Of a stretch of 38,013 nucleotides of DNA, positions 1 through 38,013 are shown piece by piece (position 1 is the stretch's first letter; every line of letters begins with the position of its first letter). This DNA comes from Kiritimatiellia bacterium (GTDB lineage Bacteria; Verrucomicrobiota; Kiritimatiellia; RFP12; UBA3636). The position numbers and the translations under genes were made by a program. The notes under the pieces are model-generated. The model was not told the origin of the DNA, made no database searches, and was given only the letters and a program-made list of their open reading frames with translations. Where the stretch lies: contig JAFUOX010000101.1 of NCBI GenBank assembly GCA_017481725.1, positions 1-38,013 of the forward strand, in the 5' to 3' direction.

Positions 1-205
1 GTGATGGGTGTGGTGATGGGGCGCGAATGCGCACATTACCGCTTGTTGTTGCTTTTATTATTGCGAAATCTGACGAAGCAATAATGCAACTGCCAAGCGC
101 TAATGTGTACGACCCACAAAGGTTGTTGAGACAGGGAGCGTAATGAACGTGATGCCAAAGGGACGCAGAGACAAGGAGCGTAATGAACGTGATGGCGGGT
201 ATGAT
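1..205 (+). repeat. Repeat island A, left flank of the GxxExxY gene
   Basis: This non-coding stretch is richer in GC than the AT-rich DNA that follows. It holds one copy of the hairpin element (33-106), then a TGTGTACGACCCACAA-like tail, and two copies of GGAGCGTAATGAACGTGATG (137-156 and 175-194) separated by a CCAAAGGGACGCAGAGAC-type segment. The words ACGTGATGCCAAAG and GACGCAGAG recur in islands B and D, and island C carries related words on the other strand. The window begins inside the island, so its left part is not visible. No plausible coding sequence is seen. Confidence 0.75.
33..106 (+). repeat. Hairpin element, copy 1
   Basis: Imperfect inverted repeat. The outer arms ACATTA/TAATGT pair over 6 bp. 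A conserved C-C mismatch follows, then CGCTTG/CAAGCG (6 bp), a 2x3 internal loop and GTTGC/GCAAC. An apical stem ATTATTGC/GCAATAAT (57-64 with 78-85) pairs perfectly. The same architecture appears at 37837-37903 on this strand and at 925-999 on the opposite strand. Relative to those copies, the fourth outer pair is T-A instead of C-G, changed on both arms. It could act as folded single-stranded DNA (REP-, MITE- or attC-like) or as RNA; the sequence does not decide which. Confidence 0.8.
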
Positions 206-386
206 TGGTGTATGGTAAAAAACATTTGTACAGTGCGAAGTTTTAAATTATTATATATTTAATTTAGTTTTTTTATAAAATTTATTTGTAATTAATTTTT
301 AATTATAATATAATCTTTACATCTTTTGAAAATAATTATTTACATCAACATATTAGAAATAGATTAAAAACACAAGGAGATGCATT
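206..386. other. AT-rich leader upstream of the GxxExxY gene
   Basis: About 180 bases, very AT-rich from about 240, separate island A from the GxxExxY start codon. The composition changes sharply at about 205-240, from repeat island to AT-rich DNA. I see a promoter candidate (286-314) and a ribosome binding site AAGGAG (374-379), and nothing else. Confidence 0.6.
286..314 (+). promoter_or_regulatory. Candidate promoter of the GxxExxY gene
   Basis: TTGTAA, a 17-base spacer and a perfect TATAAT lie about 70 bases upstream of the start codon. The region is so AT-rich that chance matches are likely, so this is a candidate only. Confidence 0.35.
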
Positions 387-782
387 ATGGACATTAATGA
401 TATTACTAAAGCAATTATTGATGCTAGCATAAATCTACATAAAAAATTTGGACCAGGTTTATTGGAATCTATTTACGAAAAATTGCTCGTTATTGAGTTA
501 AGAAGCAAAGGACTATTAGTAGAAGAACAGAAATGGCTTCCACTAATTCATAAAGGCATTAAATATGACAATGCTTATCGCATTGACTTATTAGTAAACA
601 ATCAGGTTATTGTTGAAGTAAAATCAGCAAAAGCAATGGAGCCAATTTTTACTAACCAATTAAGATCATATTTAGTTCTCTCTGGTCTAAATGTTGGAAT
701 TTTAGCAAACTTTGGTATGAGCACTATGAAAGAAGGATTGAAACGTATTGCAAACAATTTCAACAACAATCCAATCCATTAA
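387..782 (+). CDS. GxxExxY protein (PD-(D/E)XK nuclease-like fold)
   Basis: This 131-residue protein matches the GxxExxY family in length and pattern. The signature reads GLLESIY (G24, E27, Y30). A restriction-endonuclease-like core follows, with D67 in YRIDLLV and E77-V-K79 in VIVEVKSAK, the arrangement expected of PD-(D/E)XK enzymes. The family is usually described as uncharacterised; nuclease activity is inferred from the residues. AAGGAG sits 7 bases before the ATG. The gene is AT-rich, unlike the flanking islands, and stands alone with no operon partner. Island A lies upstream and island B downstream, carrying the same hairpin in opposite orientation, so the gene may be the cargo or the enzyme of a repeat-bounded element. 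I am confident of the family and not of the role. Confidence 0.88.
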   Translation: MDINDITKAIIDASINLHKKFGPGLLESIYEKLLVIELRSKGLLVEEQKWLPLIHKGIKYDNAYRIDLLVNNQVIVEVKSAKAMEPIFTNQLRSYLVLSGLNVGILANFGMSTMKEGLKRIANNFNNNPIH

Positions 783-924
783 CTTTATATTATACGTCTC
801 GTCCCTTTGGCGTCACGTGCACCACAGTCACAGCGGCGTCCCTTTGGCATCACGTGCATCACTCCTCGCACTTTTTGCCATCACGTGCATCACGCTCTGC
901 GGCTTAATTATCTTGTGGTCGTAC

Positions 925-999
925 ACACTAGCGCTTGGAAGTTTCCTAATTGCTACTGAAAGGCAAAGCAATAACTCAGGAAACGACAAGCGGTAGTGT
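925..999 (-). repeat. Hairpin element, copy 2 (inverted)
   Basis: Read on the minus strand, this copy shows the same fold: ACACTA/TAGTGT, a C-C mismatch, CGCTTG/CAAGCG, a 2x3 internal loop, GTTTCC/GGAAAC, and an apical stem ATTGCT/AGCAAT (967-972 with 949-954). The inner stem has a T-A pair where copies 1 and 3 have G-C, and both arms are changed. It lies 143 bases past the GxxExxY stop, in inverted orientation to copy 1, so the two copies bracket the gene. Confidence 0.8.
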
Positions 1000-1080
1000 T
1001 TTCGCCGACACCACCACACAAGCCACCCTAGAGCTCTGCCCCCTCTGCGCCCTCTGCGCCCTCTGCGTCTCTGCGTCCCT

Positions 1081-1150
1081 TTGGCATCACGTTTGGCATC
1101 ACGTTTGGCATCACGTTGGCGTCCCTTTGGCGTCACGTTTGGCATCACGT
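1081..1150 (+). repeat. 12-bp tandem repeat TTGGCATCACGT
   Basis: Three perfect head-to-tail 12-base units lie at 1081-1116. After a 10-base TGGCGTCCCT variant come two more units (TTGGCGTCACGT at 1127-1138, TTGGCATCACGT at 1139-1150). The unit's reverse complement, ACGTGATGCCAA, is also found in island A (149-160). Confidence 0.8.
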
Positions 1151-1156
1151 TTTTTT

Positions 1157-13361: not shown

Positions 13362-13501
13362 AAAATACCTTTTCAAATACCATATCAAAATGTTTTCACC
13401 TATTTTAACAAAAAAACATACATATTTAAAGTACCACATACACAGAATCGCACTGCTATGCTCCCGCGTACACGGATGAGTGATGTGTCGCTATCGCTCT
13501 G

Positions 13502-13545
13502 GCCTTCGGCGAAACACGGAGAATAAAGAGAACGGAGACACGGAG
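13502..13545 (+). repeat. 44-bp direct repeat, copy 1
   Basis: It begins with the mini-hairpin GCCTTCGGC, continues GAAACACGGAG and ends GAACGGAGACACGGAG. It matches 13639-13682 at 43 of 44 positions. A CGCT-N-GCGCT-like word precedes each copy. Confidence 0.85.
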
Positions 13546-13638
13546 AGTTGCCACGCAATATTTTAATAAGACTCATAGGACTTATAAGTCTTATGAAATG
13601 GCTTGTTAGCACGCACACTGATTGTCGCTTGCGCTTGA

Positions 13639-13682
13639 GCCTTCGGCGAAACGCGGAGAATAAAGAGAACGGAGACACGGAG
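13639..13682 (+). repeat. 44-bp direct repeat, copy 2
   Basis: It is identical to 13502-13545 except for one A-to-G change after GAAAC. The first 14 bases (GCCTTCGGCGAAAC) recur as the last bases of the window (38000-38013), also after CGCT-N-GCGCT, so island D carries a third copy that is cut off. Confidence 0.85.
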
Positions 13683-13855
13683 GGATTGTTGGGTTAATTG
13701 TAGATGATTGCTAATAAATACTCCCTTTCCTCCGTACTCCGTGTTAGGCGAAAGCAATAAGTGCGAAGGTCTCTGCGTCCCTTTGGCGTCTCGTGCATCA
13801 CGTTCCGCGTCTCTACGGTAGATAAAAATTCAATTGCCTACAAAAGTATTTGTGT

Positions 13856-37611: not shown

Positions 37612-38013
37612 GCCGCCTTTCGCCTTGAAACACTGGGCGATTCCACCAATTAGACGATAAGACAACCGTGACGTTAGACGTTAGATGCTTGGACAGATTT
37701 CAAGCTGACGCTCTTGCTTTCGCTACGTGTGTCCGTGTTAAGCGTAAGCAACAAGTGCGAAAAAGGGACGCAGAGACGCAGAGGACGCAGAGGTCGCAGG
37801 GCTTGCGTGGTGGCTTGTATGGTGGTATCGATAATAACACTACCGCTTGTCGTTGCCTAGTTTTGCTTCTGTTATCGCAAAGGCAACTTCCAAGCGCTAG
37901 TGTGTTCGCCCACAAGAATGCAAAGACGCGGAGCATCTGCACGTGATGGCTAGAAGTGCGAAGAAGAGACGCAGAGAACTAATGGTCGCTAGCGCTCAAG
38001 CCTTCGGCGAAAC
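37612..38013 (+). repeat. Repeat island D (truncated by the window end)
   Basis: This non-coding region follows the GH130 gene. It has a hairpin TTGCTTTCGCT/AGCGTAAGCAA (about 37715-37752), GTCCGTGTTAAGCG and AAGTGCGAA words shared with island C, three GACGCAGAG units (about 37766-37795), the GGTGGCTTGTATGGTGGTA spacer shared with island B, the covarying hairpin (37837-37903), CGCCCACAAG, ACGTGATGGC, and at the end CGCTAGCGCTCAAGCCTTCGGCGAAAC pieces matching island C's direct repeats. The word order from the tandem array to the tail equals island B read on the minus strand. Whether another GxxExxY gene lies further right is not visible. Confidence 0.78.
37837..37903 (+). repeat. Hairpin element, copy 3
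   Basis: ACACTA/TAGTGT pair, followed by the conserved C-C mismatch, CGCTTG/CAAGCG, a 2x3 internal loop and GTTGCC/GGCAAC. A short apical stem TTTGC/GCAAA closes it. It matches copy 1 at the inner stem and copy 2 at the outer stem, so the compensatory changes are independent of each other. Confidence 0.8.

Follow-up and report, generated by a model that had tools for sequence, protein, structure and literature searches.

The GxxExxY gene at positions 387 to 782 of a 38,013-nt stretch of DNA from a Kiritimatiellia bacterium (contig JAFUOX010000101.1 of assembly GCA_017481725.1; the window, analysed at its full length) lies between inverted arrays of short sequence words, and the same arrangement is found around most of its relatives. 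The window is contig C76 of a draft genome, G000 (2.59 Mb in 104 contigs, 88% complete). Our analysis leads us to propose, with a probability of roughly 0.55, that gene and arrays make up a two-component mobile repeat system, following the logic of RAYT transposases and their REPIN repeats but built on an unrelated nuclease.

We collected GxxExxY loci by a family search of 95 genomes of one order, G000 included. The family is widespread there, with 69 of the 95 genomes holding a match above the cut-off and 71 a match of any strength. The loci analysed were 110 from relatives and two from G000 (one of them a relic), weaker matches being left out; L190, L115 and L140 were dropped for their short flanks, and the 111 scored loci, some of which are orthologous copies, came from 54 genomes. 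Each was scored by the best ungapped inverted repeat between the 300-nt flanks on either side of the gene. Scores of at least 13 were reached by 104/111 loci and scores of at least 20 by 71/111 (both flanks present), against 20 and none, respectively, of 1282 control placements in loci of the same order. The first 32 loci each exceeded all their control placements and all shuffles, 5.2% of arms mispaired between genomes reached 13, and none of 30 rpsO genes did so (30 returned of 86 matches). A chance origin of the bracketing is ruled out by these four controls taken together. For the most part, the arms consist of a word of 7-8 nt repeated as an array, situated close outside the open reading frame (ORF) and often starting with AACC, AGCC or CTCAC. 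Like a RAYT gene, the gene has inverted repeats of its own class on either side. The initial annotation of the window had described a terminal-inverted-repeat-like layout around a single PD-(D/E)XK-like gene and had suggested a comparison with random loci; for the word arrays, this layout proves common across the family and far more frequent than at random placements, rather than missing from most relatives.

The arrangement is not confined to this order. A scan of one genome per species gave 567 confirmed stretches, the best 80 of which (more exist) were taken as named loci and 78 of them scored. They are mostly from Bacteroidota, with others from Cyanobacteria, Planctomycetota, Chloroflexota, Alphaproteobacteria, Terriglobia and two archaea. 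Of the 78 named loci, 49 exceed all their own controls when judged strictly by the ungapped score (54/83 with five viral loci included). The motif C-R-C-N-R-A-G occurs in forward orientation upstream and reversed downstream, within 120 nt, in 50/78 named loci and in 2/278 control placements, while the opposite orientation is seen in 14/78; when at least two words are required on each side, the figures are 41/78 for the right orientation, 6/78 for the opposite one and 0/278 for controls. One archaeal locus (L073) is bracketed and the other (L081) is not. The five viral loci all score above their own controls (L143, 23; L144, 41; L145 and L146, which have the same arms, 56; L147, 15), and words of the TTAAAATTT type were seen in L145-L147. 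Carriage chiefly by phages or plasmids was considered and rejected, since five viral loci were confirmed among 77 pattern matches and a tblastn search with one relative as query found relatives in 8 records among 72,556 from plasmids.

It is the clade of the protein that the word follows, and not the host. Between different genomes, a word is shared by 2-3% of pairs below 40% protein identity, rising to 65% (n=23) of pairs above 70%. Word sharing and protein identity are correlated (r = 0.35; 0/500 permutations), and the association is also seen when loci of the order are compared with the named ones (r = 0.17; 0/500 permutations). Within a single genome, only 1/45 pairs at 30-40% identity have a word in common, and several clades with different words can be found side by side (G025 and G028). 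Pairs from the same genome are seldom close, 90/92 being less than 60% identical, one 60-70% and one 70-90%. This tracking means that gene and arms are inherited as a unit; the protein may, in addition, read the word itself.

Arrays are also dispersed without a gene. G000 carries 178 CGCAGAG doublets against 4 of the reversed pattern, G073 has 321 CACGGAA doublets and G084 has 183 ACAGGATT doublets, the latter two genomes each possessing a GxxExxY gene that bears the genome's own abundant word. In G073, nine of the 12 places fetched consist of inverted pairs separated by a short loop of about 20-40 nt (seven of the 12 were chosen since both orientations had been listed there). Doublets neighbouring each other within 600 nt form 20 inverted, 1 everted and 5 same-strand pairs in a partly hand-picked list (100 of the 178 doublets of G000, 42 of the 321 of G073 and a partly hand-picked ACAGGATT set), two of the inverted pairs being those that bracket a GxxExxY gene or relic. 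Solo copies are commoner where the word brackets the genome's own GxxExxY gene (one-sided p = 0.00025 for CACGGAA, 0.001 for ACAGGATT and 0.028 for CGCAGAG). Gene-less inverted doublets are thus dispersed in the genome, as in RAYT-REPIN systems. An island of hairpin and array at C92:11520 in G000 is absent from the same junction in the sister species G001 and G002, whose homologous flanks are separated there by about 117 nt of other sequence.

In the window, the locus and its related features are as follows.
33 to 106, plus strand: hairpin copy A, a member of a dispersed, genus-limited hairpin family (by comparison, folding and covariance model).
110 to 119, plus strand: tail CGACCCACAA, directed at the gene (read from the sequence).
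146 to 172, plus strand: upstream arm, the ACGTGATGCCAAAGGGACGCAGAGAC word with one CGCAGAG (AACGTGATGCCAAAGGGACGCAGAGAC); a 27-nt inverted match, 100%, to its reverse complement at 1067-1093.
176 to 196, plus strand: upstream arm, second word GAGCGTAATGAACGTGATGGC (by inverted-repeat comparison).
387 to 782, plus strand: GxxExxY gene, a predicted minimal Cas4/RecB-like PD-(D/E)XK nuclease of 131 aa.
799 to 893, minus strand: downstream arm, three inverted CGTCCCTTTGGCRTCACGTG-type words, the third diverged.
913 to 999, minus strand: hairpin copy B and its tail (tail 913-921, hairpin about 925-999), inverted relative to copy A.
1034 to 1075, minus strand: inverted CGCAGAG array (CTCTGCG units, period 8-9 nt).
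1067 to 1152, minus strand: inverted word copies, the outer part of island B.
13486 to 13816, no strand: gene-less island, with a 60-nt stretch present twice with CACGGAG words (starts 137 nt apart) and an inverted CAAAGGGACGCAGAG word.
37762 to 37799, plus strand: gene-less CGCAGAG array.
37836 to 37908, plus strand: hairpin copy C of the same family, adjoining the CGCAGAG array (the third copy of the initial annotation).

What had first been observed here is borne out: the hairpins of the two islands are in opposite orientation, their CGACC(C)ACAA tails both point at the gene, mirrored words are present in both islands, and the composition of the gene (30% GC) is unlike that of the islands (50% and 54%) or the next ORF (43%), with 18% GC at 197-386. 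To this we add the CGCAGAG arrays, the array island at 13486-13816 and the dispersal of both arrays and hairpins across the genome. The hairpins of the islands are complementary to each other (87% over 38 nt and 78% over 32 nt), and hairpins A and B fold as single-stranded DNA with z = -3.9 and -4.1. No clean empty site was found for the 13486-13816 island, its downstream neighbour alone being matched in G001 and G002 (the upstream side was examined in G001 alone). The family search of G000 returned one intact GxxExxY gene and one relic match of 31 positions (L002, on contig C26); the relic also lies between oppositely oriented CGCAGAG arrays, the nuclease having decayed while the arrays remain. 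By eye, the relic stands upstream of an ORF reading like a helicase or ATPase. Many of the listed array or hairpin places of G000, including that of the window, are within a few hundred bases of contig position 1, which suggests that the islands probably break the assembly.

A covariance model built from five copies of the hairpin was searched against 21 genomes and matched only three, all of the window's genus: G000 with 132 matches (strands partly double-counted; at least 85 distinct places), G001 with 57 and G002 with 7; the other 18 gave none. The hairpin as terminal repeat of the gene is ruled out, as only 2 of the at least 85 places in G000 are beside the GxxExxY gene of the window and no GxxExxY was detected in G001. 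The inverted-repeat layout therefore stands for the word arrays and falls for the hairpins, which are spread without regard to the gene whereas the word arrays are not. On contigs C1-C67, 39/48 hairpins have a listed CGCAGAG doublet no more than 300 nt away; the dispersed word-array islands carry the hairpin as a passenger, and the window holds an intact gene in a composite locus, genus-specific hairpins having joined the arrays. A second, related hairpin type (ACACTAGCGGAATGAG...) was seen at several sites of G000 (L258-L263), either next to CGCAGAG arrays or within them.

A change of place by the whole unit is indicated by L194, L195 and L206, whose proteins are 95-96% identical although they come from three genomes of two genera and sit at unrelated sites. 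The homology of their DNA begins where the left array has its outer end, runs to approximately the corresponding end of the right array and is not clear past that point; no target-site duplication was seen in the three. The ends are placed from this trio alone because most pairs of a wider survey, in which 345/411 are listed as ending inside both flanks, are too diverged for their ends to be located. In G025, a unit lies between cydA and cydB, two genes that are adjacent in G042 of the same genus. Most of 20 close pairs examined share both flanks, so that movement looks rare. L205, L210 and L214 have a downstream flank common to all three. In L095 and L132, the unit (from about 244 nt upstream to 97 nt downstream of the gene) is inside an outer terminal repeat, GCTACTC...GAGTAGC; apparent target duplications of 8 bp, TGCCCCCG and CCCGGGGA, were read by eye.

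Those last two loci favour another explanation, namely that the gene is itself a passenger, kept for some other role, while arrays and hairpins are spread by another enzyme or by recombination. The persistence of arrays in genomes without a detected gene (G016 and G076 are array-rich) and the abundance of the hairpin family in G001 are in keeping with it. A passenger gene would not, however, be expected to be matched to its word clade by clade, nor to be bracketed at nearly all loci of the order, and the homology of L194, L195 and L206 ends approximately at the arms, not at an outer repeat. We consider this explanation unlikely.

A second protein family shows the same architecture. TIGR02436 comprises four-helix-bundle proteins and is, we presume, the family of the protein encoded by the intervening sequences (IVS) of 23S rRNA genes. 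In relatives, 26/30 TIGR02436 loci (L033-L062, a set of 30 among many more) score at least 13 and 27/30 exceed their own controls, with words (GGGGAAC, AGTGGCT, TTGGTTTG, GAGCTTG and others) that are mostly unlike those of GxxExxY. This raises the possibility that the arms act as RNA, forming a long transcript stem trimmed by RNase III or a relative, which would make insertion into operons tolerable. The unit in the cydA-cydB junction would fit, as would the matching of arm spacers in 114/176 true pairs vs 42/87 mispaired arms of the same word. In Coxiella, the 23S rRNA IVS measures 428 nt and has an ORF in the loop that a terminal stem of 28 bp closes (PMC4990558); it thus resembles our units in its size of about 430 nt and in its one small ORF inside terminal inverted repeats. 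GxxExxY units differ in lying outside rRNA, in encoding another protein (neither S23 nor a four-helix bundle), in their word-array arms and in their gene-less copies. Arms made of direct-repeat arrays exceed the needs of a stem, some named loci have words on both sides but poor arm complementarity, Rfam has no match within the window, and the dispersal of gene-less copies is hard to reconcile with a purely RNA role. An RNA element seems to us distinctly improbable.

The protein of the window matches TIGR04256 (E 3.9e-36, 123.9 bits against a cut-off of 35) and PF13366 (E 9.4e-36, 123.2 bits against a cut-off of 22) over the whole domain; these are its sole matches in the two libraries, with no Y1 or HUH transposase domain among them. 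Nine positions are invariant in 55 aligned GxxExxY sequences (G24, E27, D67, E77, K79, Q91, Y95, N108 and F109), including the nuclease residues D67, E77, K79, Q91 and Y95, kept in 55/55. Comparison with VIA-align gives a PD-(D/E)XK fold; the matches include Cas4 and restriction enzymes, as well as archaeal Hjc at a Z that may reflect no more than a common arrangement; the residues D, E-x-K and Q-x3-Y are what we take to be Cas4/Hjc-type motifs. As Foldseek gave no match at E <= 0.001, the likeness to Cas4 is drawn from VIA-align and these residues; no solved relative was convincing by sequence (best E 0.58). GxxExxY proteins are thus predicted to be minimal Cas4/RecB-like nucleases, differing from Cas4 in having no cysteine among their invariant columns and in length (131 aa for that of the window). 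Close pairs are under purifying selection, as judged from nonsynonymous to synonymous rate ratios of the 25 closest pairs; of four further pairs, two had saturated synonymous sites, one lacked any non-synonymous change and the last was a viral pair present in duplicate.

Such a fold, with restriction enzymes among its matches, could also belong to a nuclease of defence or competition, with the flanking arrays serving as a mark of self or in control of the gene, and L015 is situated, by eye, between genes reading like hsdS and hsdR. Gene-less inverted arrays would go unexplained by such a role, and the few viral and plasmid records are, at the sensitivity used, neutral towards it. We regard it as very improbable. 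The literature found, most subscription journals being outside the search, gives no role for GxxExxY, PDDEXK_3 or PF13366, no description by title or abstract of word-array-bracketed genes and no match to the CGCAGAG doublet strings; a passage on GxxExxY in one paper does not treat repeats.

Returning to the two-component mobile repeat system, its closest parallel is RAYT-REPIN, in which, according to PMC3116915, a low-copy enzyme gene has inverted repeats of its own type next to it and inverted doublets without a gene are dispersed, as proposed, in trans. Both systems share the low-copy gene, the own-type inverted repeats, the dispersed gene-less doublets and the coupling of enzyme and repeat; in both, there are several genes to a genome, very seldom close paralogues of each other (PMC3116915). 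RAYTs are Y1 tyrosine transposases related to IS200/IS605, whereas GxxExxY proteins are Cas4/RecB-like; the GxxExxY repeats are arrays of 7-8 nt words, not REP palindromes, and the bracketing extends to several phyla and, of the two loci from archaea, to one. Although the logic is that of RAYT-REPIN, the GxxExxY system is not a member because it has no Y1/HUH transposase. The TAACTGA repeats are a further parallel, being mostly intergenic heptamer direct repeats of distant phyla for which horizontal transfer is suspected with no evident mechanism (PMC4679880); they differ in being direct repeats with one inverted case, and no GxxExxY-like partner gene is named in the available part of that account.

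In the mechanism we envisage, the gene and the inverted arrays around it would act as one unit. The predicted Cas4-like nuclease would likely recognise its own arrays by binding the word and would cut at or near the array ends; excision or copying might then follow, both in cis and in trans, along the lines suggested for RAYTs and REPINs, so that the enzyme likely moves its own unit together with gene-less inverted copies around the genome. Binding, cutting and transposition by the GxxExxY protein are all inferred from sequence. A broader proposal, which we make tentatively and at a little under even odds, is that GxxExxY proteins are the enzymes of undescribed, phylum-crossing minimal mobile elements, in which a nuclease of about 130 residues reads clade-specific inverted word arrays, moves a unit of about 500 nt and seeds gene-less arrays, with TIGR02436 being a second, unrelated protein family of the same architecture with words of its own.

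GxxExxY thereby gains a candidate DNA substrate in its own arms, and the scattered CGCAGAG-, CACGGAA- and ACAGGATT-type repeats gain a candidate enzyme. If the proposed system is real, RAYT-REPIN would have an independent counterpart on another nuclease fold, and the family would offer a naturally occurring set of nuclease clades, every one of them with a short word of its own. If the broader proposal also holds, small genes bracketed by word arrays would represent a general type of selfish DNA in bacteria.
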